Assembly: GCA_021770755.1 (NCBI GenBank) | Contig: JAETQI010000039.1 | Span: forward strand, 1-42,708 | Direction: 5' to 3' | From: Lachnospiraceae bacterium | GTDB lineage: Bacteria; Bacillota; Clostridia; Lachnospirales; Lachnospiraceae | DNA: 42,708 nt | Shown here: positions 3,968 to 40,393 of the stretch, piece after piece | Numbering within the stretch: position 1 is the first letter of the stretch | Layout: the number at the start of each line of letters is the position of its first letter | The notes under the pieces: model-generated | What the model saw: the letters and a program-made list of their open reading frames with translations, nothing else | Told to the model about the DNA's origin: nothing | Databases searched by the model: none | Position numbers and translations under genes: made by a program

Positions 3968-3984
3968 TGCAATGCTGTACTAAA

Positions 3985-4140
3985 GCGTGTTTGAAAAATC
4001 ATTCCCGCCATCTATACGCCCCACTTTGCGCAATATTTGCGTCAAATTCAGTCGACGTAGCCCGCTACGTCTCCTTCATTTGGCACAAATCTCCCACAAA
4101 CTGTGACGCACATCTGACGGAAAGCATTTTTCGAACACGC
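3985..4140. repeat. MITE-like element, copy 1 (156 bp)
   Basis: The ends are imperfect inverted repeats: GCGTGTTTGAAAAAT (3985-3999) and the reverse complement of 4126-4140 differ at one position. Inside is the perfect palindrome GACGTAGCCCGCTACGTC (4054-4071). Related copies occur at 37994-38149 (same orientation) and 40211-40393 (opposite orientation). The left end follows a TA. An open frame crosses the element (3967-4200), but its peptide recurs only because the DNA repeats, so it is not called as a gene. The element separates the GtrII-like gene from the fusion gene. Confidence 0.8.
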
Positions 4141-4171
4141 CCTGGCAGAATAATGATACGGAGGGATATTT

Positions 4172-7100
4172 ATGGAACCAATTGTTATAGAAAATTTTGA
4201 TTTGTCAGATGGAGCTTACGATGATGCGTATGGAAATCACATAGAAGGAGAGAGCGGAATTGTTAAGAAGGTGGTATTTGGCGGTCGTGATAATAAGATC
4301 ATATTTGGAAAAAATGTGATCGGATTAAAAAATGTTGTTTTTTGTATGGGGGCAAACGGAACGATAGAGATTGGTGAGGGATCAAACTTTTGTGATAACG
4401 TTCGGTTTAGTCTGAATGGACTGAACGGCAGATCAAGCATTTATATAGGAAGATGGTGCCGGTTTGATAAAAGTTTTTTCAGACTGTTCAATCACCCCAT
4501 GATTTCGACAGTGATCATTGGAGATAACTGCACGTTCGAACCCAATGTGGACTTTAGGGCCAATTCCGGCAAAAAAATAGTCATCGGCAGAGACTGTATG
4601 TTTTCGAGAGATATCCAATTGCAGTGTGGGGACGGACATTCTATGTTTGATGTCCATACAGGAGACAATATCAATACGTTTTACGGGGAATCGGAAAAAG
4701 AAAAGAATATACTGTTGATCGGTGAACATGTATGGGTGGCGGCGCAGGCATTCGTGTTAAATGGCACCTGCATTGGAAATGGAAGCTGTATCGGTGCAGG
4801 AAGCGTTGTCAAGGGGACATTTCCCAACAACTGCTGTGTTGCAGGTAATCCAGCCAGGATGATCAGGAAGGACATCGCATGGAGCAGGGAAGGTGCAGTG
4901 GAGAAGATCGGTGAAACAGTAAGAAGAGAGTATGTCGCGGAGACGAGGGAGACGAAGCCGGCAATTTATGGATGCGATGTGTTGGTGATCGGTGGGACAA
5001 GATTTATGGGATTAAAGCTGGTGAAAGAACTGCTAGCCAGAGGGAATCGTGTAACCATTGCTACCAGAGGAAATCAGAAGGATCCGTTTGGAGGACGGAT
5101 TAACAGGATTATCCTGGATCTGGATGACCCGCAGAGCGTTGAAAGAGCATTAAAAAATCAATGGTATGACATCGTTTTTGACAATCTGGCTTATTGTTCT
5201 AACTATGTCAAAGAAGTTTTGGGAAACGTACGTTGTGGAAAATATGTACAGCTATCATCAGTGGCAGTATACATACCAAAGAAGGAAAATATAGAGGAAG
5301 AGTACTTTGATGCAAAGAATATCGAACTGGAATGGAGCTTTGTCGACGACAATTATGCAAAAGGAAAACGCAATGCGGAAGCAGCAGTAGTGCAGGGATA
5401 TCCTGATACCAAGTATGTGATCGTAAGGATTCCCTATGTCAGCAGAACTGAAAGATTGTATTATTACTGTAGTCACATAATCAATGGCGAACTGATGAAG
5501 ATAGAAGATATCGAGCGTGGATTTACATTTGTGAGGGATGATGAGGTCGGAAAGTTTCTGCCATGGATTGCCGCGCAGGATTATACTGGAACGATCAACC
5601 TGTCAAGTACCGGCATGATCACATTGAGAGAATTGATTCGTTATATAGAAAAAAAGGTTGGGAATAAGGCTTTATTTGATACGACATGCGGAGATCAATC
5701 GCCGTTCAATGAGCCGGCATTTAATTTAAATATGGCTAAGGCAGAGTCACTGGGATATGTATCTTCTTCTTTGGATGAGTGGTTTTGGACGGTGATTGAC
5801 GAGTATATAGAGAAGGGATTAAAGGCATATGATAATGCAGCGGGGCAGAAAGAAGACCAGCCTAAGAAAAGATTTCATTTTCCGAAAATATTGAAGAGAG
5901 ACATGGTGAAACGAGGAACGATTGAGGAAGTGGATGCAAATCTGTGCACAGGATGCGGAGCCTGCAGAAATATCTGCCCGAAAAATGCCATTGGATTGTA
6001 TCCGGATCGAGAAGGCTTCTTAATGCCCGTGATCGACAAAAAGAAGTGTGTGTCTTGCGGATTGTGCCAGAAAGTGTGTCCGACGATGTCGAAGACAAGT
6101 CATTTGAAACAAAATATATCTTGCTATGCCATGATGGCGGAGGATACAGTGCGGGAGGTCAGCTCTTCGGGTGGTGCATTTACGCTGCTGGCAGAAAACA
6201 TTTTGGGCAAAAATGGCGTAGTGTGCGGTGCGGCATGGGATGATGGCTGTCATGTGAAACAGATTGTCATTCAAAATGTAGATCAGATTACAAGATTAAG
6301 AGGTTCTAAATATGTACAGAGCGATACGGGGTTTTCATTTCGGGAAATCCAGAAGAGTTTAATAAAGGGAAAAGAAGTATTATATGTCGGAACACCATGT
6401 CAGATAGAAGGGCTATTGAATTTCCTCCAGAAAGATTATGACAATCTGATCACGGTAGATTTATTGTGCAGGGGAAATGCCTCCAATGAACTGTTCTTAA
6501 GATTTTTAAAAGAAAATTACAAAGATAAAAAGGTACGATCCATTAAGTTCAAAGATAAGAAGCCATTGGGGTGGGGGGCGACAACTTCCTATGTTTTTGC
6601 TGACGGAAGCACTGAGAAGCTCAATACACACAACAGTGCCTGGATGTATGCCTATTTGGCGGACTTTATGGATCGAAAGTCCTGTTACAGATGTAAGTTC
6701 AATCAATCCCGGAGGGTGGGGGATATATCGATCGGTGATTTCTGGGGAATTGAGAGATATGATGAGAGACTGAATGACAGGAAGGGGACAAGCATCATGA
6801 TCACAAGCACAGCCAGGGGCGAGAAGCTTGTCAGAGAGATCGGGGAAAAGTGTAAAAAATTGGAAAAAATCCCGATTGAATGTGGGATTCCCTACAATTC
6901 TGCGCTGTGTTCCCATGTCAGGATGACACCAGCCAGGGATGTCTTTTTTCAGGCAATTGGGAAGATGCCGATTTTGGCAGCAATTGACCGTACTGCGTAC
7001 AAAGAAAAATATGATGTCGGGATTGTGGGATGGTGGTACAACTTAAATTATGGCGGAACGCTAACCTATTTTGCATTAAATCAGACGATAAAAAAATTGG

Positions 7101-8062
7101 GTTATTCCGTGCTGATGATCCGAAGATCTTCATCGGGGCCTGCCATGCCAAATGACAATACGGTTCCCATGAGATTTGCAAAGAAGCACTACAATATCAG
7201 CAGATTATATACTGCGAGGGATATGCACTGGCTCAACTATTCATGCCGGGCATTTGTCGCTGGTTCGGATCAGTTGTGGAATCCGTATTTGGAGCAGTAT
7301 TCGGGGGCGGAGTATTATCTGTCGTTTGTCAATGATAAGAATCTGAAATTGTCGTACGCCACTTCATTTGGCGGAAGCGATGAGATGCCGCCGGAATATA
7401 TAGGAAAGTATAAGCATTATCTGGAGCGTTTTGACGGTATAACGGTCAGAGAGGATTATGCGGTGAAAATCTGCGATCAAAGTTTCGGGCTGAATGCTTT
7501 GCAGGTGTGCGATCCTATATTTTTATGTGATAAGGCAAGGTATGAGGCGTTGGCTGATATGTCTGAGCGAAAACTGCCAGAAAGGTATATTCTTAATTTT
7601 TTGCTGGATCCTAATGATGAAAAAGTGGACGCGTATCGTTTTGTACAAAAGTCGCTGGGGATCGCAGAAGTGGTGAATCTTACGGATTTGCAGGATGTTG
7701 CAAGGCGTGTGGAGCGATTCGGAACGGATGGGGCATACGGAGATGCGGAGATCGAGGATTTTGTGAAAGCATACAAAGAGGCAGCGTTCGTCATCACGGA
7801 TTCTTTTCATGGAACATGCCTTGCAGTCATACTGAATAAGCCATTTATAGCGATCGTCAATAAGCAGCGCGGAGAGAAGCGATTCGTGTCTTTGATGAAC
7901 TGGCTGGGACTAAACGAAAGATTTGTCTTTGATATTGACGAAATATATCACAATGCTGAACTGATGAGTTTCCATGGTTTTGAAAAAGCGAACGAAATCA
8001 TCAGACAAGGACAGATCCAGGGCTGCCATTGGCTGCAAAGAATGCTGGAGAAGGCTGTGTGA
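4172..8062 (+). CDS. Four-domain fusion: acyltransferase, NAD epimerase, Fe-S/FrhB, polysaccharide pyruvyl transferase
   Basis: This 1296-residue protein is predicted to modify surface polysaccharide. Residues about 35-238 form a left-handed beta-helix (hexapeptide repeats, ending in the typical GNPAR segment), an acyltransferase domain. Residues about 266-560 are an extended SDR epimerase with the NAD motif GGTRFMG (274-280), serines 362-363 and YAKGK (Y395, K399). Residues about 587-640 hold two [4Fe-4S] sites (C592, C595, C598, C602; C626, C629, C632, C636), followed by a FrhB-type region to about 930 with GTPCQIEG and a CysXXCys at 838-841. Residues about 948-1290 are a polysaccharide pyruvyl transferase (NYGGTLTYFAL, VAGSDQLWNP, ITDSFHGT). 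The ATG follows ACGGAGGG. FrhB and pyruvyl transferase genes often neighbour each other in polysaccharide loci, but this single-chain combination looks unusual. All recognised motifs appear intact. Confidence 0.85.
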   Translation: MEPIVIENFDLSDGAYDDAYGNHIEGESGIVKKVVFGGRDNKIIFGKNVIGLKNVVFCMGANGTIEIGEGSNFCDNVRFSLNGLNGRSSIYIGRWCRFDKSFFRLFNHPMISTVIIGDNCTFEPNVDFRANSGKKIVIGRDCMFSRDIQLQCGDGHSMFDVHTGDNINTFYGESEKEKNILLIGEHVWVAAQAFVLNGTCIGNGSCIGAGSVVKGTFPNNCCVAGNPARMIRKDIAWSREGAVEKIGETVRREYVAETRETKPAIYGCDVLVIGGTRFMGLKLVKELLARGNRVTIATRGNQKDPFGGRINRIILDLDDPQSVERALKNQWYDIVFDNLAYCSNYVKEVLGNVRCGKYVQLSSVAVYIPKKENIEEEYFDAKNIELEWSFVDDNYAKGKRNAEAAVVQGYPDTKYVIVRIPYVSRTERLYYYCSHIINGELMKIEDIERGFTFVRDDEVGKFLPWIAAQDYTGTINLSSTGMITLRELIRYIEKKVGNKALFDTTCGDQSPFNEPAFNLNMAKAESLGYVSSSLDEWFWTVIDEYIEKGLKAYDNAAGQKEDQPKKRFHFPKILKRDMVKRGTIEEVDANLCTGCGACRNICPKNAIGLYPDREGFLMPVIDKKKCVSCGLCQKVCPTMSKTSHLKQNISCYAMMAEDTVREVSSSGGAFTLLAENILGKNGVVCGAAWDDGCHVKQIVIQNVDQITRLRGSKYVQSDTGFSFREIQKSLIKGKEVLYVGTPCQIEGLLNFLQKDYDNLITVDLLCRGNASNELFLRFLKENYKDKKVRSIKFKDKKPLGWGATTSYVFADGSTEKLNTHNSAWMYAYLADFMDRKSCYRCKFNQSRRVGDISIGDFWGIERYDERLNDRKGTSIMITSTARGEKLVREIGEKCKKLEKIPIECGIPYNSALCSHVRMTPARDVFFQAIGKMPILAAIDRTAYKEKYDVGIVGWWYNLNYGGTLTYFALNQTIKKLGYSVLMIRRSSSGPAMPNDNTVPMRFAKKHYNISRLYTARDMHWLNYSCRAFVAGSDQLWNPYLEQYSGAEYYLSFVNDKNLKLSYATSFGGSDEMPPEYIGKYKHYLERFDGITVREDYAVKICDQSFGLNALQVCDPIFLCDKARYEALADMSERKLPERYILNFLLDPNDEKVDAYRFVQKSLGIAEVVNLTDLQDVARRVERFGTDGAYGDAEIEDFVKAYKEAAFVITDSFHGTCLAVILNKPFIAIVNKQRGEKRFVSLMNWLGLNERFVFDIDEIYHNAELMSFHGFEKANEIIRQGQIQGCHWLQRMLEKAV

Positions 8063-8064
8063 AT
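8031..8064 (+). repeat. Direct repeat A (34 bp), 3' end of the fusion gene
   Basis: The sequence starts GGCTGCAAAGAATGCTGG and ends at the fusion gene's TGA plus AT. It recurs at 9885-9918 with one mismatch (C versus A at the sixth position). The two copies bracket the ATPase/nuclease pair. This copy is part of an intact reading frame and encodes the residues LQRMLEKAV before the stop. Confidence 0.92.
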
Positions 8065-8124
8065 TAAGAATCACAAGAAAACTTTGAGAACTTGCATATA
8101 TTTATATTATTATGAGGGCGTATG

Positions 8125-8133
8125 TGATATAAT
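8125..8133 (+). promoter_or_regulatory. Candidate extended -10 promoter of the ATPase/nuclease module
   Basis: TGATATAAT matches an extended -10 element (TGN followed by a perfect TATAAT at 8128-8133). The -35 region is poor (TATTAT), as is common for extended -10 promoters. It would start transcription near 8140, about 95 bases before the GTG start, so the module would carry its own promoter inside the repeat-bounded segment. Confidence 0.45.
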
Positions 8134-8234
8134 TGGAAACACTGGAGTGCTTGTTTTTGTCTTGCTCTGACTCGGAATTTTATGCACTTACGATCCACAA
8201 GATGAAAGACAACAAACAATAGGGGGGAAATCAG

Positions 8235-9320
8235 GTGTCAATCAGATCGATTAAAATATTAAATATAATGGCATTTCAAAGGCAGCGGTGTAAGGGCGAT
8301 GAGGATTGCAAAGAATTTGATGCAAAAGAAGATGACGTATTGAGTGAGGCGTTTGCCTTAAGATTTTGTGATGGTATCAATATACTGATCGGAGAGAATG
8401 GTGTGGGCAAGACTACGATCTTAAAGATGATTTACGCTGCAACGCAATGGTCCATGACAAAAAAAAATACCGGAAAGACACAGGGACTGACGCAGTTTTT
8501 CTCTAATAATCTTTCTGACATTGATTTGTTGATGAACAGGCGCGAGGGCGGAAATTCTTATTTTGAGATATCTGACGGAACGCATAAATTTACGGACAGT
8601 CTGTCACATAAGACGGATTTGGATTTTGATGATTGGTCTGGATTGAATATTTCGTCGATTTTTATACCAACAATGGAAATGCTGTCACATTCGCAGGGAT
8701 TTCTTGCATTGTATCAGAAATATAAACTTCCTTTCGATGGTACGCAGGTAGATATTATTGTAAATGCGTCTTTGCCAGAAGCAAGAGAATTACCAGATTA
8801 CATGAATGCAGTTTTAGCCAGGATCAGTGATGTAATTGATGGGACAATCCTGATGGAAAATGATACTTTTTATGTGCTGAAAAAGGACGGAAGAAAGCTT
8901 GACTTTTCATTGGAGGCAGAGGGGTTAAGGAAATTAGGTCTGCTTTGGAAACTGATACGCAATGGTTTGTTGGAAAGCGGTACGGTCCTGCTTTGGGATG
9001 AGCCGGAGGCAAATCTGAATCCTGAATTGTTTCCGATTGTTGTAGATATATTATTGGAATTAGAAAAAGCAGGGATACAGATATTTATTGCGACGCATAG
9101 TTATAATCTTGCCAAATGGTTTGAAATCAGGAGAGCACGCAATGAGCAGGTGCAATACCATAATTTATACAAAGGTTCATCTGAATCAGATCCACTTTCG
9201 CAGGAAATCGGAATTTTTGGGAAATCGGCATATTATTTAAGCGGATTAAAAGGCAATAAGATTGTCAGGGCAGACGATGAATTATTGGATGAGGCACTAA
9301 AGAAAAATTTAGGAGATTAG
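8235..9320 (+). CDS. AAA_21-type ATP-binding protein (OLD/RecF-like)
   Basis: This is a 361-residue cytoplasmic ATPase of the ABC/SMC-like class. Walker A is GENGVGKT (53-60), Walker B is VLLWDEPEANLNPEL (D255, E256), a signature-like FSLEAEGLRKL lies shortly before it, and the H-loop is IATHSYN (H288). It has no membrane segment and only a short insertion between Walker A and the signature, so it is neither a transporter nor a full SMC. The start is GTG 8235, preceded by AGGGGGG. The next gene begins 10 bases after the stop, and ATPases of this type are often paired with a nuclease effector in phage-defence modules. It is AT-richer than the two-component genes next to it and lies between direct repeats. 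A defence role is an inference. Confidence 0.82.
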   Translation: MSIRSIKILNIMAFQRQRCKGDEDCKEFDAKEDDVLSEAFALRFCDGINILIGENGVGKTTILKMIYAATQWSMTKKNTGKTQGLTQFFSNNLSDIDLLMNRREGGNSYFEISDGTHKFTDSLSHKTDLDFDDWSGLNISSIFIPTMEMLSHSQGFLALYQKYKLPFDGTQVDIIVNASLPEARELPDYMNAVLARISDVIDGTILMENDTFYVLKKDGRKLDFSLEAEGLRKLGLLWKLIRNGLLESGTVLLWDEPEANLNPELFPIVVDILLELEKAGIQIFIATHSYNLAKWFEIRRARNEQVQYHNLYKGSSESDPLSQEIGIFGKSAYYLSGLKGNKIVRADDELLDEALKKNLGD

Positions 9321-9330
9321 GGCAAGGCAT

Positions 9331-9873
9331 ATGCAGAACGATAGGAGCAGAAAAATATTTTGGGACGAAAACCATAATGTACAGTTTGATTTTTCTAATG
9401 CAGTGAGTGTGTTTGAACCACATAATCTGGCAAATATGTATTCCGAATATTTGTCGGATGTCGATTTTGTGATAGAGGATCAAGAAAAACTGATCTGTCT
9501 TGAATACAAGAATGCAAATGTAAAAAATGCGAATAATACAGATGCTTTTAAACAAAAGATTGATACGGAAGAATTTTGGAAAAAAATAGCGAAAAAATAT
9601 TATGGGACGATGTTCCTGGTATGGGCATGTAATAAAAATCAGACAGATAAAGTAGTGCAATATGTGTTGCTAATAGAGTGCAATCCCAGTTTTGACGATG
9701 CTTTGAAAAAAAGATTTGTTATGAAGATGATGCGCCAACTGCCATTTAAATATAATTCTCAAAGTGAAATTCATAAAAGGGTAATTGATGATTTCTGTTT
9801 GATGGATCTAAAAGAATGGAGAGTAAGGTATCCGCAATTTCCTATATATGATACGGAATTTTCAAAGGTATAA
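9331..9873 (+). CDS. Putative PD-(D/E)XK nuclease-like partner of the ATPase
   Basis: I do not recognise a named family for this 180-residue protein. It contains a spacing typical of PD-(D/E)XK nucleases: D45 in SDVDFVIED, then a hydrophobic strand LICLEYKNA with E58 and K60. Predicted alpha/beta segments follow (MFLVWACN, QYVLLIECN), consistent with that fold. No signal peptide or membrane segment is seen. The gene is transcribed with the ATPase upstream (10-base gap, purine-rich ribosome binding site at 9323-9326). A 34-bp repeat copy starts 11 bases after its stop. A nuclease effector under ATPase control is the simplest reading, but it could be a non-catalytic relative. Confidence 0.55.
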   Translation: MQNDRSRKIFWDENHNVQFDFSNAVSVFEPHNLANMYSEYLSDVDFVIEDQEKLICLEYKNANVKNANNTDAFKQKIDTEEFWKKIAKKYYGTMFLVWACNKNQTDKVVQYVLLIECNPSFDDALKKRFVMKMMRQLPFKYNSQSEIHKRVIDDFCLMDLKEWRVRYPQFPIYDTEFSKV

Positions 9874-9884
9874 TGTGAAATATA

Positions 9885-9918
9885 GGCTGAAAAGAATGCT
9901 GGAGAAGGCTGTGTGAAT
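9885..9918 (+). repeat. Direct repeat B (34 bp), displaced copy of the fusion gene's 3' end
   Basis: It is identical to 8031-8064 at 33 of 34 positions and still reads as RLKRMLEKAV plus stop in the equivalent frame, but no gene leads into it. It ends at the base before the stop codon of the histidine kinase on the other strand. This suggests that an ancestral chromosome had this gene end facing the kinase directly, and that the intervening 1.8 kb was added later. Confidence 0.92.
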
Positions 9919-11334
9919 CTATTCCCCTTCAACCTTCTCCAATGTAAAGATAAACTCCGTACCGACGCCTTCGGTGCTGACAACATTGATATTTTCATTG
10001 TGGGACTGGATGATCTCCTTGGTGATGGAGAGTCCAAGTCCCGTTCCTTTCTTGTCCTTGCCGCGTGAGAGGTCTGTCTTGTAGAAGCGGTTCCAGATCA
10101 GGCGGATGCTGTCCTTTGGGATACCGATGCCGTTGTCTTTGACGGAGACCAGCAGCTTGTTGGACCTTTCCACGGTCTCGATCTTGATCGAAGAATTTTT
10201 GTGGCTGAACTTGATGGCGTTGTCCACCAGGTTGTAGAGCACCTGCTGGATCTTTACCATATCTGCGTTTACATACATCTCATCTCCGGTGAGGACCAGC
10301 TCGATGGAGATCAGTTTTTGGCGGCAGGTTCCCTCGAAGGACATTGCCGTATTTTTGATTACCTGATTGATATCAAAGTTGGTTCTGTCAAGGATCATGC
10401 CTTTGGTCGTCAGGTTGTTGAGCGTGAGCAGGGAGTTGGTCAGTTTTGTCAGGCGGTCGGTTTCGTTCAGCACGACGCCGATGTATTTCTCGTGCATCTC
10501 GGGAGGGATCGTCCCGTCGAGCATCGCCTCGAGATATCCGCGCATGGAGGTGAGCGGTGAGCGGAAATCGTGGGAGATGTTTGCCACAAGGCGCTTCTGA
10601 TTGTCCTCGCTCTTGGCGACCTCGCTTGCCATGTAGGCGAGGGAGGCGGCGAGATAACCGATCTCGTCCTCGCTGTCCACCTGGAATTCGTATCTGAAAT
10701 TACCGATTGCATACTGTTCTGTCGCGTGTGTGATCTTGCGCAGCGGCAGATATACCATCTCCGTGAAGAAGAGCAGGATGATCAGCGACAGCAGAAAGAG
10801 GATCACCAGCGTGATATAGGATATGTTCAGGAGCGAGTTGCAGGAGGACTGCAGGTTATCCACAGATGCGTGGATGACCACATAGCCTTTCACCTTGTAC
10901 TTGGATGTGATCGGTGCAAACGCAGAGATCATCTCCTCGTCGAACATTCCGAAAAAGTTCCCGGTTGTATAAAACGAGTTCCCAGTGATCGTGGGACTGA
11001 AATTCGGGATGGTAGTGGGGTTTTCGATCTCAAGCGGCGAGCTGGAATCCAGCACGATCAGCCCCGACGGATTGACGATCCAGACCGAGGCGTCAAGGAA
11101 GGTGCCGATCGCCTCGATCTGACGCCATACGGATTCGAGTGTGATCTCGTTGTTGTAGAGATCCGCAGCGTAGGAGTCGGAGATCAGCAGGGCTTCCTTG
11201 TACAGGGAGTCAGCGCGCTCGCGCTTCATGTGTTCCAGCGTCATGCTCGATGTAAAAGTCGCGACGACGATAAAACCAAAAAAAGCAAAGATCAGATAAG
11301 CCAGTACAAATTTTAAATAAAGTGTCCGCTTCAT
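9919..11334 (-). CDS. Sensor histidine kinase (HAMP, HisKA, HATPase_c)
   Basis: This 471-residue membrane kinase pairs with the OmpR regulator just upstream. It has a first membrane span at residues 8-30, an extracytoplasmic sensor region of about 140 residues with no obvious ligand motif, and a second span at 171-192. HAMP follows (195-245), then HisKA with the phospho-acceptor H255 in NISHDFRSPLTS. The ATPase domain has NLVDNAIKFS (N box), KDNGIGIP (G1) and GTGLGLS (G2). An in-frame ATG at 11388 exists, but the ATG at 11334 is preferred: it overlaps the regulator's TAA by one base (TAATG), typical of coupled pairs, and starts MKRTLYLKF before the first span. The signal sensed is unknown. 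Confidence 0.93.
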   Translation of the reverse strand: MKRTLYLKFVLAYLIFAFFGFIVVATFTSSMTLEHMKRERADSLYKEALLISDSYAADLYNNEITLESVWRQIEAIGTFLDASVWIVNPSGLIVLDSSSPLEIENPTTIPNFSPTITGNSFYTTGNFFGMFDEEMISAFAPITSKYKVKGYVVIHASVDNLQSSCNSLLNISYITLVILFLLSLIILLFFTEMVYLPLRKITHATEQYAIGNFRYEFQVDSEDEIGYLAASLAYMASEVAKSEDNQKRLVANISHDFRSPLTSMRGYLEAMLDGTIPPEMHEKYIGVVLNETDRLTKLTNSLLTLNNLTTKGMILDRTNFDINQVIKNTAMSFEGTCRQKLISIELVLTGDEMYVNADMVKIQQVLYNLVDNAIKFSHKNSSIKIETVERSNKLLVSVKDNGIGIPKDSIRLIWNRFYKTDLSRGKDKKGTGLGLSITKEIIQSHNENINVVSTEGVGTEFIFTLEKVEGE

Positions 11335-12035
11335 TAATTTCTGACCTCGAATTTGTAGCCGACACTCCAGATCGTTGAGATGCGCCACGACTCATGATCC
11401 TTGATCTTTTCGCGGAGGCGTTTGATGTGTACATCAACAGTCCGCGTGTCACCGATGTAGTCGTATCCCCAGATCTGGTTGAGTAGCTGATCCCTCGTAA
11501 ATACATGGTTTGGCGATGCGGCGAGGAAGTACAGCAGTTCCAGTTCCTTAGGGGGCATGTCCACGGTCTTTCCCTTGTAAATGACAGAGTAGTTGGTGAG
11601 GTTTACGGTGAGGTCGGGATAGGAGACCTGCTTGGAGTCAAACGCGGGCTGCGCGGGGGAAGCTGTCTTATAGCGTCGCAGGACTGCCTTGACGCGCGCC
11701 ACGAGCTCCTTCGTGTCAAACGGTTTCTCCAGATAATCGTCGGCGCCAAGCTCGAGTCCCAGCACCTTGTCAAACACCTCGCCCTTTGCCGACAGCATGA
11801 TGATCGGGGTCTGTGATTTCTGGCGGACCTCGCGGCAGACCTGATAACCGTCAATGCCGGGAAGCATCAGGTCAAGAAGGATCAGGTCCGGTGAGAAGCT
11901 GTTCACTTCCTGCAATGCAGATTCCCCGTCATAGACGATCTTCGTCTCAAAACACTCCTTTGTCATGTACAGAGAGATCAGTTCTGCAATGTTTTCATCA
12001 TCATCTACGATCAGTATTTTTTGTTTGTTTGCCAT
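11334..12035 (-). CDS. Response regulator, OmpR/PhoB family
   Basis: This 233-residue transcription factor is phosphorylated by the kinase encoded downstream. The receiver domain (1-120) has the acidic pair D11/D12, phospho-acceptor D55 in LILLDLMLPG and lysine in DDYLEKPF. A winged-helix domain (about 135-230) ends with RTVDVHIKRLREKI and VGYKFE, the standard DNA-binding signature. It starts 24 bases after the stop of mutS2 on the same strand and overlaps the kinase start by one base, so all three are likely co-transcribed. Its target genes cannot be told from this window. Confidence 0.94.
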   Translation of the reverse strand: MANKQKILIVDDDENIAELISLYMTKECFETKIVYDGESALQEVNSFSPDLILLDLMLPGIDGYQVCREVRQKSQTPIIMLSAKGEVFDKVLGLELGADDYLEKPFDTKELVARVKAVLRRYKTASPAQPAFDSKQVSYPDLTVNLTNYSVIYKGKTVDMPPKELELLYFLAASPNHVFTRDQLLNQIWGYDYIGDTRTVDVHIKRLREKIKDHESWRISTIWSVGYKFEVRN

Positions 12036-14545: not shown

Positions 14546-15679
14546 CTAATAAATTCCCCGGATGCCGGTGTCGCCATCGAGGGTGTTCATGTTATATAGC
14601 AGTAATATATCCGTGATGTCCCCGTGTTCTGCCAGAAAAGAGGACGGTCCGTCCCTGTAGTATCTGGTGTCGAGCACGTAGATCTTTTTGTAATGGTGCG
14701 CGAGGAAGGGCACCATGGAATTGGCGTAACTGTCCTTGATCAGCATCAGTGTATCCTGTGAGGCCGCCGTGCTGTTCTCGATCTCGACAAGCGGATGGAT
14801 ATTGTTGAGAAAGAGAGAGTATTTGTCTTTCTCTGCCACATAGTCGAGGTTGTACAGTCTGTCGGTCACTTCCCCCGTATCTGCATAGGTGACAGTCAGG
14901 TCATCTGCGGGGTTGGTGTATATCGTGATCGCGTCTTTCGGGTGGCTGTAATCGTTCACCTTGGAGTACAGCGTGCCGGCAAAATCTTCTGTGACGGTCT
15001 GCGCTTCCATGGATTCAAGTGACACGGGTGTCATATTTTTGGCATCGCAGTACGCGAGATAACCATAGTATGCGCCCAGCGTCGTCCAGTGATGGTCCGT
15101 GCGGTAGTAGATCTGTCCCTGCGCGGCGCCCTCATAAAGCCTGTCCGTGCAGTCGATCGCGGGAATGCCCGATGCATCGTAGATTGCGTCTGCAACCTCC
15201 TTCTGATCAGACGATGGAGCATATGCAGGGAGTTTGTCGCTGTATATGGTCACGGCTGTCGGCACCAGCATCAAATTCACGTCGACTTTTGCCTGACCGA
15301 TCTTGTCGTAAAAATGGACGAGCGTGTCCGTTATGCGCGCTGTGTTCTGCGGTTTGGCGTAGGATTCGATGAGATAGTCGTCCTGCGCCACATAGACGTG
15401 GTTGATCTCCCTCCTGCCGCTTGCGATCTCCACGCCACTCTTTAATCCCACAAAAAAATCCCGCTGCGGGAAGTGGTCGGCAAGCCAGTCGCCCAGCGAC
15501 TCCGTGTATTCTCCGCCCAGCAGAGCATTCGCGGAAAAGGACGGGAATTTTGTGAGATATCTGTTTTCATTTTCAGAAAATTCTTTCTTCGGACTGACGA
15601 GCAGGCATACGGACAGCGATAAGATGCCGATGCAGAGCAGGCATACGACAGTCCTTTTTATTTTCATGTTTGTGATCAT
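14546..15679 (-). CDS. DHHW-family (AlgX/PatB-like) O-acetylation protein
   Basis: This 377-residue protein is anchored by an N-terminal segment (residues 10-28) with the rest outside the cell. It carries the family's DHHW motif (195-198 in YYRTDHHWTT) and a downstream serine in LIKDSYANSM, matching SGNH-like acetyl-transfer proteins that work with an MBOAT partner. The MBOAT gene lies 30 bases upstream in the same direction, followed by DUF4358 and SGNH hydrolase genes, so this is the last gene of a four-gene surface O-acetylation operon. The acceptor could be peptidoglycan, teichoic acid or a capsule. mutS2 begins 74 bases downstream on the same strand. Confidence 0.87.
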   Translation of the reverse strand: MITNMKIKRTVVCLLCIGILSLSVCLLVSPKKEFSENENRYLTKFPSFSANALLGGEYTESLGDWLADHFPQRDFFVGLKSGVEIASGRREINHVYVAQDDYLIESYAKPQNTARITDTLVHFYDKIGQAKVDVNLMLVPTAVTIYSDKLPAYAPSSDQKEVADAIYDASGIPAIDCTDRLYEGAAQGQIYYRTDHHWTTLGAYYGYLAYCDAKNMTPVSLESMEAQTVTEDFAGTLYSKVNDYSHPKDAITIYTNPADDLTVTYADTGEVTDRLYNLDYVAEKDKYSLFLNNIHPLVEIENSTAASQDTLMLIKDSYANSMVPFLAHHYKKIYVLDTRYYRDGPSSFLAEHGDITDILLLYNMNTLDGDTGIRGIY

Positions 15680-15709
15680 TGTTATGGTATCCTTTCGGAA
15701 AATGGACAG

Positions 15710-17125
15710 TTAAAACCGGAAGTACAAAAACGGATTGTAGGTGTCGCTCACCATGTATGCCGTTGACAATAGAAACAGCAGCAGCATACCGATCCCGGCG
15801 CACGCGGACAAAATGCAGCGTTTTCCAGCGCCAAGCCTTGCTGCCTTTTGGCAGATCCACGGATATACCGGGCATGCAAGGACACAGGCGGTGACAAGCA
15901 CGGCGCCGTAATTGCCCAGATACCACAGAAAACGGGTGTCGGCAAGTGTACCGGAGGCGAAGGAAAAGAGCAATGTGATGTAGCCCCCAAGCTCTCCAAA
16001 GTCTGTGATCGCAAAGATCACGAAACCAAACACGACGATCAGAAACGCGTAGGCGTGCCGGATCCCTCTGGGTAATTTTGCAAGCAGTTTTCCCCATACG
16101 TATTTTTCCAGCATGAGCAGGATCCCGTAGTAGACGCCCCACAGGACAAAATTCCACGACGCCCCATGCCACATTCCGGTCAGAAACCATACGACGGCAA
16201 TATTGAACAGGTGGCGCAGGACTCCCTTCCTGTTTCCGCCGAGCGGGATGTACACATAATCGCGGAACCATGTGGACAGCGAAATGTGCCAGCGCCGCCA
16301 GAAGTCCGTCACGGAGACTGCGGTCAGCGGGTAATTAAAGTTCTCATTATAATGAAAGCCGAGCATGTGCCCCATGCCGATCGCCATATCGCTGTAAGCG
16401 CTGAAGTCAAAATAGAGCTGCAGCGTAAAACAGAGCGCGCCAAGCCATGCCGTCGCAACGCTCGTATCCGCAGCGCCCAGGACGCGGATCTCTTCCCACA
16501 GGGCACCGGTCTGGTTAGCGATGAGCACTTTCTTGAACAGCCCCATCATAAAGCGCAGCAGCCCCTGCTCAAATCCTGCCAGCGTGAGTTTCCTGCCATG
16601 AAGCTGTTCCTGAATGTCGGCAAAGCGCACGATGGGACCGGCAACTAGCTGCGGAAACATGGACACGTAAGTGAGGTATGCCGTATAGCTGTGCTCCGCT
16701 TTCACCTCGCCGCGGTACAGGTCGATGATATAGCTCATCGTCTGAAAGGTATAAAAGCTGATACCGACTGGGAGATGGATCCCGGGCTGCGCAAACTGCG
16801 TACCGAGCAGTCCGTTTATGGACGCGACAGCAAAGTCGGCGTACTTGAAAAAGGCAAGTATGGACAGATTGATACAGATGCTGCAGCACAGGAAAAAAGT
16901 CCGCCTGCACCGGGTCGTGCCAAAGCGCTCCATCAGCCGCCCGTTCGTGTAGTCGAGCAAGGTGGAAAAGAGCATCAGGAGAATGTACAGCGGCTCTCCC
17001 CACGCGTAAAAAATCAGGCTAAAAATAAGCAAAATCCCATTTTTCCATGAAAATGGGACTGCGTAATACAAGATCAGGCACAGCGGCAGGAAAAAGAACA
17101 AAAACGGGATACAGCTAAAGACCAT
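15710..17125 (-). CDS. MBOAT-family membrane O-acyltransferase (AlgI/DltB-like)
   Basis: This 471-residue protein has about ten to twelve membrane spans and moves an acyl group, usually acetyl, across the membrane for attachment to a cell-surface polymer. Family landmarks are YTFQTMSYIIDLYRG (about 125-140), the region DFWRRWHISLSTWFRDY with the conserved WHISL, and the catalytic histidine in TGMWHGASWNF. The ATG at 17125 is preceded by GGAGGA. It is 12 bases from the DUF4358 lipoprotein gene upstream. Its acyl group is presumably passed to the DHHW protein and controlled or removed by the SGNH hydrolase. Confidence 0.92.
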   Translation of the reverse strand: MVFSCIPFLFFFLPLCLILYYAVPFSWKNGILLIFSLIFYAWGEPLYILLMLFSTLLDYTNGRLMERFGTTRCRRTFFLCCSICINLSILAFFKYADFAVASINGLLGTQFAQPGIHLPVGISFYTFQTMSYIIDLYRGEVKAEHSYTAYLTYVSMFPQLVAGPIVRFADIQEQLHGRKLTLAGFEQGLLRFMMGLFKKVLIANQTGALWEEIRVLGAADTSVATAWLGALCFTLQLYFDFSAYSDMAIGMGHMLGFHYNENFNYPLTAVSVTDFWRRWHISLSTWFRDYVYIPLGGNRKGVLRHLFNIAVVWFLTGMWHGASWNFVLWGVYYGILLMLEKYVWGKLLAKLPRGIRHAYAFLIVVFGFVIFAITDFGELGGYITLLFSFASGTLADTRFLWYLGNYGAVLVTACVLACPVYPWICQKAARLGAGKRCILSACAGIGMLLLFLLSTAYMVSDTYNPFLYFRF

Positions 17126-37993: not shown

Positions 37994-38149
37994 CGTGTTT
38001 GAAAAATCATTCCTGTCATCTATACGCCCCACTTTGCGTGATATTTGCAACGAATTCAGTCAACATAGCCCGCTATGTCTCCTTCATTCGGTACAACTCT
38101 CCCACAAACTGTGACGCACATCTGACAGAAAGTATTTTTCAAACACACT
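37994..38149. repeat. MITE-like element, copy 2 (about 156 bp)
   Basis: It is collinear with copy 1 and identical at most positions. The ends GTGTTTGAAAAAT (37995-38007) and its reverse complement (38134-38146) match exactly. The internal palindrome is ACATAGCCCGCTATGT (38063-38078): two arm pairs changed together from C-G to T-A relative to copy 1, which keeps the pairing. The right end is followed by TA, as expected for a TA-duplicating element; the left flank has lost it. Confidence 0.78.
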
Positions 38150-38997: not shown

Positions 38998-40212
38998 ATG
39001 AAAAATCAAATCATAAAATATTTGTTAGTTATTTTATTGTTGTCAGGCATTTTCAAAACTGTAGGAAAAACGGGTTATGTACAGGGCAAAGAACTCGAGT
39101 CAGGACAATTAAAAGCATGGGAAACACAGGTTGCTAAAGACTATTTTCAGCTTGTGGAATGGCAGGATGTGGTGAAACAATCCATATTTATGCAGTTGGT
39201 GGAGAAATATAAATGTGAAGGTGAACATTCTTTTCAATTGGTCGATACACATATTCTGCAAAATGCAAAGGAAGAAAACTGTGAGGTATATTTGCTAATG
39301 TATAAAGACAGTTCTGTATTAAGAGGTGGCTGTTTTTATAAGGGTATTTTGATCAATTATGACAAGAATACCAGTGAAATGTTGTTTGAAGTGGAAAAAG
39401 ACTATAAACTCGCATCATTAGGGAATGAATTTTATGATATGCAGGTAGCTGATCTCGATGGAAATGGGGAGAAAGATATCATACTTTTGCTAGGTGAACA
39501 TAGACATCAGGGCGCGGAATATTATATACCAGATATCTATGGTCTGATAGGGCTTCAGAAAAACGGAAGTTTTCAATTTGTTAATTGCCATAAGGAAAAA
39601 TGGCTGGAAGAGATCCTTTACCCATTGTATAAAGAAGAACATGATAATAGGAAAATTCAAAATATAATGGATGATTTGAAAATATATTTTAAAAATACCA
39701 ATTCAGATACGGTAAAGGATAATGAAAAAACGCTTGAAGATTATATTCATAAAAAAGAAGAAAATATCGTAAAGAAATTGGACCAGCGTTCATTAGCGAT
39801 GAGTAGGGAAGTGTTATGGGAGCACATATTTGTAAATGAGGATGACCAGATACGAAAGATCATGGTATGTGCTGAAGAGGGAGAACCAGGTTTTGCCCCT
39901 GTAGGGCAGATTTCGGTGTATGTTTATGATTATCAGACAGAAGAGGCAGAGAAACAGATTGTGCCTGATATTTATGAGGATATTTGTGATGAGTATGGTT
40001 TCTCTACAGAGATCAAATTAGAAGATCTTATATATGAGGATCAGAATGGAGATGGAGAAAAGGATATCGCTATAACGATAGTTGTTACAAATGGGAAAAA
40101 GGATAAGGATAAAAAACAGTCAAAATACAGGATTGTTTATTACAGCGGCAGGTATCAGGAAAACAATATGAAAATTTTTACGAAAGTATCTGTAGGATTT
40201 TCTGGGAACTAG
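38998..40212 (+). CDS. Secreted protein with calcium-loop-like (DxDGNG) repeats
   Basis: This 404-residue protein has an N-terminal signal or anchor segment (YLLVILLLSGIFKTVG). Two acidic loops resemble FG-GAP/VCBS-type calcium loops: VADLDGNGEKDIILLLG (about residue 152) and YEDQNGDGEKDIAITIV (about residue 347), each followed by a beta strand. The middle is rich in charged helices. The ATG follows AAGGGAG. Function is unknown; it resembles in layout the two neighbours at 40434 and 41285, suggesting a local family of exported proteins. Copy 3 of the MITE-like element abuts its stop codon. Confidence 0.6.
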   Translation: MKNQIIKYLLVILLLSGIFKTVGKTGYVQGKELESGQLKAWETQVAKDYFQLVEWQDVVKQSIFMQLVEKYKCEGEHSFQLVDTHILQNAKEENCEVYLLMYKDSSVLRGGCFYKGILINYDKNTSEMLFEVEKDYKLASLGNEFYDMQVADLDGNGEKDIILLLGEHRHQGAEYYIPDIYGLIGLQKNGSFQFVNCHKEKWLEEILYPLYKEEHDNRKIQNIMDDLKIYFKNTNSDTVKDNEKTLEDYIHKKEENIVKKLDQRSLAMSREVLWEHIFVNEDDQIRKIMVCAEEGEPGFAPVGQISVYVYDYQTEEAEKQIVPDIYEDICDEYGFSTEIKLEDLIYEDQNGDGEKDIAITIVVTNGKKDKDKKQSKYRIVYYSGRYQENNMKIFTKVSVGFSGN

Positions 40213-40393
40213 AGCGTGTCTTAAAATTGCTTTCCGTCAGATGTGCGTCACAATTTGTGGGAGATTTGTGCCGAATGAGGGAGGCGTAGCGGGCTATATT
40301 GACTGAATTCGGTGCAAATATCACGCAAAGTGGTGAATACGACGCATACACGTCGTTATGCAGATGATGGGAATGAATTTTAAGACACGCTCT
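40211..40393. repeat. MITE-like element, copy 3 (183 bp, inverted)
   Basis: The ends are a perfect 18-base inverted repeat, AGAGCGTGTCTTAAAATT (40211-40228) and its complement at 40376-40393. Inside is the reverse complement of the core of copies 1 and 2 plus about 27 extra bases around ACGACG...CGTCGT. TA occurs at both junctions (CTAGAGCG, CGCTCTAA), consistent with a TA target duplication of the IS630/mariner type. It begins within the stop codon region of the preceding gene. Confidence 0.8.

Follow-up and report, generated by a model that had tools for sequence, protein, structure and literature searches.

In a stretch of 42,708 nucleotides from a Lachnospiraceae bacterium (GenBank assembly GCA_021770755.1, contig JAETQI010000039.1, positions 1 to 42,708; hereafter the window), two adjacent genes matching the candidate defence system HEC-02 lie between two copies of the 3′ end of a neighbouring polysaccharide gene. 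We consider it probable that positions 8065-9881 represent a minimal two-gene HEC-02 unit that was inserted at the 3′ end of this fusion gene with a target duplication of about 37 bp. On this best reading the two copies reflect duplication of the target at the end of a gene, and such duplications are a known, little-studied kind of which this would be a variant. The features of the locus are as follows.

4172-8062, plus strand: host gene, encoding a 1296-amino-acid (aa) fusion of hexapeptide, epimerase-like, Fe-S/FrhB-type and polysaccharide pyruvyl transferase parts
8028-8064, plus strand: copy A of the repeat, covering the last bases of the fusion gene with the TGA (by repeat comparison)
8065-8234, plus strand: upstream region of the inserted unit, about 170 bp, 35% GC
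8235-9320, plus strand: HEC-02A, an ABC/OLD-type ATPase of 361 aa (PADLOC HEC-02A; Pfam AAA_21)
9331-9873, plus strand: HEC-02B, 180 aa, with a PD-(D/E)XK type motif D...ExK (DVDF/EYKN; PADLOC HEC-02B and an alignment of 14 sequences)
9882-9918, plus strand: copy B of the repeat, a remnant gene end, in frame Y-R-L-K-R-M-L-E-K-A-V-stop (frame read by hand)
9919-11388, minus strand: convergent sensor histidine kinase forming the right border, present in most of the genus relatives searched

A direct repeat of the target is present on both sides of the unit. It comprises 37 bp (8028-8064 and 9882-9918), of which 35 are identical, and contains an exact core of 28 bp. The longest exact direct repeats in 20 first-order Markov random sequences made from the window measured 13-16 bp. 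The original prediction had described 34-bp copies with one mismatch (8031-8064 and 9885-9918); these are as described, and the repeat extends to 37 bp. Copy B does lie at the kinase stop, though not one base before it as had been thought, since its last base, 9918, directly adjoins the stop codon at 9919-9921 (minus strand). The in-frame TGA of copy B itself, at 9914-9916, is 2 bp from that codon. Two codons differ between copies A and B within the repeat. With up to three mismatches allowed, the 28-bp core was found at no third site in the host genome and was absent from all 37 further genomes of the genus searched; the 28-mer also gave no match in viral contigs. The suggestion that further genes might end in the same tail found no example elsewhere in this genome or in the other 37 genus genomes.

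Homologue alignments of the pyruvyl transferase part of the fusion, in both the genus and the family sets, run through its C-terminus, which identifies copy A as the native gene end. Among the family homologues, 11 of 12 reach the position of a C-terminal tryptophan, and all 11 keep this residue (read by eye). Copy A has tryptophan at this polarity site and copy B has arginine; thus, copy A keeps the common residue. Seven genus homologues were looked at, of which four reach the end, two with tryptophan, one with arginine (L086) and one with valine (L088). On the other side of the unit, we compared the kinase loci of 20 genus relatives. In 16 of them, the 3′ end of a convergent open reading frame (ORF) with a length of 110 aa or more falls between −4 and 73 bp from the kinase stop, and in nine it lies no more than 13 bp away. 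Copy B therefore occupies the usual end point of a convergent gene at this border. Judged from these comparisons, the fusion gene natively ends in copy A, and copy B is most likely the old end of that gene at the kinase border. The alignments through copy A and the convergent ORF ends in 16/20 relatives support the proposal of an insertion at a gene end that left the full end on the left and a remnant on the right.

The enclosed pair is, by its model matches, a member of the known candidate defence system HEC-02; what is new is this particular member. HEC stands for Hma-embedded candidate, and the HECs stem from a preprint by Payne et al., as cited in the portion of PMC12111858 available to us. 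Both genes match their models, taken from PADLOC-DB 2.0, near full length, and they are adjacent. The ATPase matched the HEC-02A model PDLC04213 with an E-value of 5.3e-102 over residues 1-359, and Pfam AAA_21 with 2.5e-21. The second protein matched the HEC-02B model PDLC04217 with 1.1e-56 over residues 7-174; it also weakly matches the PDC-S01 model. In the alignment of HEC-02B proteins, ExK is present in 14 of 14 sequences and D in 12 of 14, the two most distant sequences (L071 and L072) having E at the D position. The predicted structure of HEC-02B has a mean predicted local distance difference test (pLDDT) score of 74.4; its best Foldseek match had an E-value of 0.15 with none at 0.001, and the weak matches include several nucleases (Can2, N.BspD6I and Shedu). 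A sequence search of the PDB with HEC-02B gave nothing below an E-value of 0.6, and the structure model of HEC-02A, with a pLDDT of 38, was too poor for use. Going by the family, the OLD/ABC-type ATPase would sense infection and license the small putative PD-(D/E)XK nuclease. Some other members of the group (HEC-04 and HEC-06) showed antiviral activity according to sections of PMC12111858 and PMC12988326. Our literature search for HEC-02 by name returned no related paper.

Between the copies, the gene content agreed with the original prediction of an ATPase and a nuclease-like gene, beyond which there are only antisense ORFs of 131 and 88 aa. The promoter that had been assigned to the unit did not stand out: the consensus match at 8084-8113 (10/12) is one of eight such matches in the region, where shuffled sequences led us to expect 8.2. 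When region 8065-8234 was compared with 397 family genomes, no more than two matches came up outside this genome, both weak and covering 26 and 31 query bases. The absence of a recombinase, also part of the prediction, held. Neither of the two genes between the copies encodes an integrase or transposase according to the ORF list, Pfam and PADLOC, and the best inverted match between the inner ends of the unit is 7 bp, which leaves no terminal inverted repeats there. Among 20 further ORFs of the window, Pfam revealed no recombinase in the 14 with a family match, and six matched no family. A search of Rfam gave one match, far below the gathering threshold.

Two other pairs of an ATPase and an effector were compared. 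OLD-ABC ATPases paired with PD-(D/E)XK nucleases are described as likely backup modules of bacteriophage exclusion (BREX) systems in the part of PMC12839542 at hand. The window pair shares this domain pairing, but no BREX gene adjoins it. PARIS, likewise an ATPase-effector pair and also embedded in BREX according to excerpts of PMC11341690, consists of AriA and AriB. Its AriA model is matched weakly by the window ATPase (1.6e-22), whereas AriB is a TOPRIM protein and the partner in the window carries the D...ExK motif; no match to the AriB model was found in this protein among the PADLOC models. Septu was rejected as the identity of the pair because PADLOC found no match to PtuB in the partner (9331-9870).

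The ATPase is sparsely distributed. Counting the present genome, it was found in 19 of 397 family genomes at an E-value of 1e-30 or better and in two of 38 genus genomes at 1e-15. Searches of phage and plasmid records retrieved distant ATPases only (3 and 8 records, respectively), and viral contigs yielded no confirmed relative. The closest relative of the pair that we found is in Petralouisia muris (Lachnospiraceae; locus L015), where a type 1 BREX system surrounds it, with pglX on one side and pglZ on the other. DNA similarity between the window and L015 is limited to 8214-9873; thus, the gene pair is the shared unit. The window unit stands alone at the end of a polysaccharide gene, whereas its relatives either belong to a BREX locus, as in L015 and (judged by eye) in L069, or have housekeeping genes as neighbours.

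We then compared the flanks of HEC-02 loci. In a first test of 18 loci, only 700 and 400 bp of flank were used, and in five of them (L060, L063, L067, L071 and L072) the right side did not reach beyond HEC-02B. The ORF-defined test covered 14 loci with up to 1500 bp of flank. In the window, the flanking-repeat score was 31 against a shuffle maximum of 13, and in L069 it was 26 against 12. At the other loci the flanking repeat exceeded the shuffle maximum by at most 3, and 12 of the 14 had no clear repeat. L069, in which HEC-02 stands at the head of the BREX locus, was rejected as a target duplication, as its repeat (5800-5840 and 7888-7928) consists of a segment from within brxA and a diverged copy of that segment ahead of HEC-02, and the layout differs. 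Likewise set aside was a 16-bp repeat of L018 from the first test, which overlaps an ORF start and did not recur in the ORF-defined test. A filled and an empty site were available in G405 (L059) and G451 (L100). There, HEC-02 occupies about 1.75 kb at the stop codon of tgt, with about 7 bp lost and no duplication. This insertion without duplication indicates that duplication is not a property of HEC-02, and the site, together with the 12/14 loci lacking a clear repeat, rules out a general HEC-02 insertion signature.

Similarly bracketed genes were found elsewhere in the same genome.

Contig C27 (L179), 176-967: ToxN/AbiQ gene between 40-bp copies of the last 40 nucleotides of a neighbouring gene
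Contig C52 (L039), 627-1260: decayed Septu unit, flanked on both sides by a 40-bp sequence from the 3′ part of a 557-aa gene
Contig C16 (L167), 15308-17023: gene for a GtrII-type glucosyltransferase, flanked by identical 41-bp copies of intergenic sequence

On C27, the last 40 nucleotides of a gene for a 313-aa protein, stop included, recur with 39/40 identity beyond the ToxN/AbiQ gene, which was identified by Pfam (E-value 3e-46) and PADLOC (7e-35). The insert also holds two 38-bp tandem repeats beside this gene, and tandem repeats of this kind are typical of type III antitoxins. This pair turned up in a survey of genome stretches. The Septu case was found because C52 carries an isolated, exact 28-bp match to the start of HEC-02A. 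Its 40-bp copies are 37/40 identical and 594 bp apart, and the second adjoins the stop of a convergent helix-turn-helix (HTH) gene. The insert holds the C-terminus of PtuB (PADLOC E-value 6e-10) as well as the HEC-02A piece, and a peptide in it, without a model match in Pfam or PADLOC, resembles the start of PtuA. The 557-aa protein belongs to no Pfam family and looks by eye like a membrane protein; its gene, on the left, apparently continues into the insert and has acquired a new tail from it, and the right copy reads at once to a stop. As a separate observation, C52 and the window have a 22-bp exact sequence in common near both contig starts (93-114 and 91-112, respectively), perhaps an insertion sequence end.

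The GtrII gene on C16 has a fitting layout and copies that contain an inverted repeat. It was not counted as a case, being neither at a gene end nor a classical defence gene. Two repeats on contig C9 (L160) were also set aside, a gene tail that looks by eye like Rpn paralogy and a 43-bp pair of unclear kind. The duplications measure 37 bp in the window, 40 bp each for ToxN and Septu, and 41 bp for GtrII. No pair among these four exceeded the shuffle maximum when compared for shared sequence.

To place these cases in context, we scanned gene ends over 1,453,614 bases, about 31% of the genome, comprising 1232 genes, of which 1207 had enough sequence. Matches of score 20 or more were counted and the discarding was done by eye. 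The raw matches amounted to nine for end probes, five for middle probes and four for start probes. After paralogue tandems, a miniature inverted-repeat transposable element (MITE) and a low-complexity match had been discarded, three end probes remained, compared with none of the 2414 middle and start probes. Discarded were six of the nine end matches (the MITE in L152, L190, L160, L204 and two in L246), all five middle matches (three in L246, one in L204 and a low-complexity one in L169) and all four start matches (one in L190, three in L246). We take the tandem paralogues to be flagellin, TerD and VCBS genes. Fisher's test gave p = 0.037 on a first count of 3/1241 versus 0/2482, which includes the window, a case not found blindly; this count (641 + 354 + 246 = 1241) held the stretch L171 twice. 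All three duplications at gene ends enclose defence genes. Probes placed 20-80 bp after the stop gave nine raw matches among the 1207 genes (three in a first single sample), equal to the gene ends. They comprise the C52 pair from its HTH side, the 43-bp C9 pair, three tandems (L204 and L246) and four others. The after-stop matches in L166, L208, L239 and L241 are short direct repeats of 23-60 bp that start just after gene stops. As the after-stop control equals the gene ends, these are not shown to be preferred over the DNA following genes. The isolated duplications of the scan are located at gene ends or in intergenic DNA, and none lies at a probed middle or start. Duplication at gene ends with defence cargo thereby possibly recurs in this genome, which is a modest sign.

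In other genomes, 670 genes (346 + 147 + 177) yielded five raw end matches. Two reflect an apparent transposase copy (L225), one a paralogue-like pair (L225) and one a masked stretch; the fifth, a Fic gene of G022 (L223), is the one further candidate. At this site (contig C1, 95-3217), one copy of a 36-bp exact repeat lies in the 3′ part of the Fic gene, and two genes lie between the copies, one of the DUF6551 family and one that is masked. As a side observation, the window carries a dispersed, imperfectly palindromic MITE-like repeat of about 165 bp at 3968-4171, 37994-38146 and 40211-40333. It has 43 matches in this genome and 35-51 in four relatives, and it occurs in seven of the 24 genomes searched.

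Several explanations of the bracket have to be weighed. An artefact of assembly or a chance repeat has very little to commend it. The contig does come from a draft assembly of 122 contigs, but the copies differ at two bases, contrary to an overlap misjoin, and 28 exact bases exceed the length expected by chance. Site-specific integration at a gene 3′ end, with the copies as attachment sites (attL/attR) and the integrase lost or acting in trans, is also quite improbable. The order of gene end, cargo and gene-end remnant is the layout of integrating elements, and the original prediction had likened the bracket to those that integrate at tRNA or gene ends. This likeness found no support, as the 1.8 kb contain no integrase, the four duplications have no common core, those at the three other sites being unrelated, and most HEC-02 loci with testable flanks (12/14) lack a clear repeat. 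Moreover, the fusion gene end is not conserved, being absent from all 37 other genomes searched in the genus, and would make a poor attachment site; an att-site origin was rejected on these grounds. A DNA transposon was rejected as well, given that there are neither terminal inverted repeats nor a transposase between the copies.

Replacement of the locus, the alternative raised in the original prediction, deserves more attention, although we regard it as unlikely. A donor segment with the fusion gene and HEC-02 would have replaced a resident polysaccharide locus that ended in an allele of the fusion, and copy B would be the tail of the lost gene. This would suit the two codons by which copy B departs from copy A. 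It would also suit the kinase border, where the neighbour on the side facing the repeat is of several kinds that vary between groups of the 20 relatives, and where none of the stretches compared from them holds the fusion gene or HEC-02. Of ten relatives examined, four have another histidine kinase directly beside this one, and the homologue of that second kinase in the present genome is on C52; together with the variable neighbours, this indicates that the kinase site has been rebuilt. Yet under replacement a breakpoint would have had to fall 8 bp beyond HEC-02B and by chance leave just a gene end, and it leaves the similarly laid-out ToxN/AbiQ and Septu sites unexplained.

Insertion of HEC-02 at the gene end with duplication of the target remains the probable explanation. 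It draws directly on the repeat, the family matches, the native state of copy A and the two similar sites in the same genome. Several observations weigh against it. HEC-02 in G405 was inserted at tgt without a duplication, and the after-stop probes gave as many raw matches as the gene ends. The genus homologue L086 shares the arginine of copy B at the polarity site, and L088 has valine there. An empty site was not seen in the comparison, which covers other members of the genus, none of them conspecific. The window was pointed out by the original prediction and C52 was reached via HEC-02A, so that only the ToxN case was found blindly. Finally, other isolated repeats of this genome measure 43-58 bp, and a fixed length of about 40 bp is suggestive only; the C27 ToxN pair is absent from the selection listing these repeats, presumably owing to a homology filter.

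The order of events, the chemistry of insertion and the defence activity are inferred. Before the insertion, the fusion gene would have ended 2 bp from the stop codon of the convergent kinase. The insertion would have duplicated about 37 bp of the target, such that the fusion gene stays complete through the left copy, whereas the old gene end, on the right, would be free to drift. With no recombinase in the unit, end-capture or repair, or an activity in trans, might leave duplications of roughly 40 bp. An insertion in the last 40 bp or so would not break the gene, which would let the insert survive there. Since the left copy is complete after such an insertion, the location at gene ends or between genes could follow from selection.

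A precedent exists for restriction-modification systems. According to the passages of PMC3874152, PMC3031569 and PMC1643837 that we consulted, which describe Nobusato et al. (2000) and Furuta et al. (2010), these systems can be inserted with a long target duplication; PMC3874152 puts it on the order of 100 bp and notes no link to any mobile element. The present sites are alike in that defence genes without a mobile element lie between duplicated target flanks. They differ in the length of the duplication, 37-41 bp instead of about 100 bp, and in their cargo of HEC-02, ToxN/AbiQ and Septu. A narrow literature search, limited to the portions of the sources it returned, found no report that units of HEC-02, ToxN or Septu are flanked by duplications of this kind.

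The sites bear on the way in which small defence systems spread without mobility genes. There is some chance, a small one in our estimation, that this lineage has an unrecognised route in trans, which would drop recombinase-free minimal defence operons (HEC-02, ToxN/AbiQ, Septu and perhaps GtrII) into targets unrelated in sequence and duplicate about 40 bp of each, in the manner of a staggered-cut integrase, the inserts surviving at gene 3′ ends and between genes because the gene stays whole. A Cas1-like or other integrase with a stagger of about 40 bp would be one candidate, on which we can only speculate. If the reading is true, several unrelated defence units of one genome, each between copies of about 40 bp from unrelated gene ends, would provide a signature by which a route that is recombinase-free or acts in trans could be tested, and the idea of long target duplication would reach beyond restriction-modification. 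A search between duplicated gene ends would then be a simple scan for defence genes.

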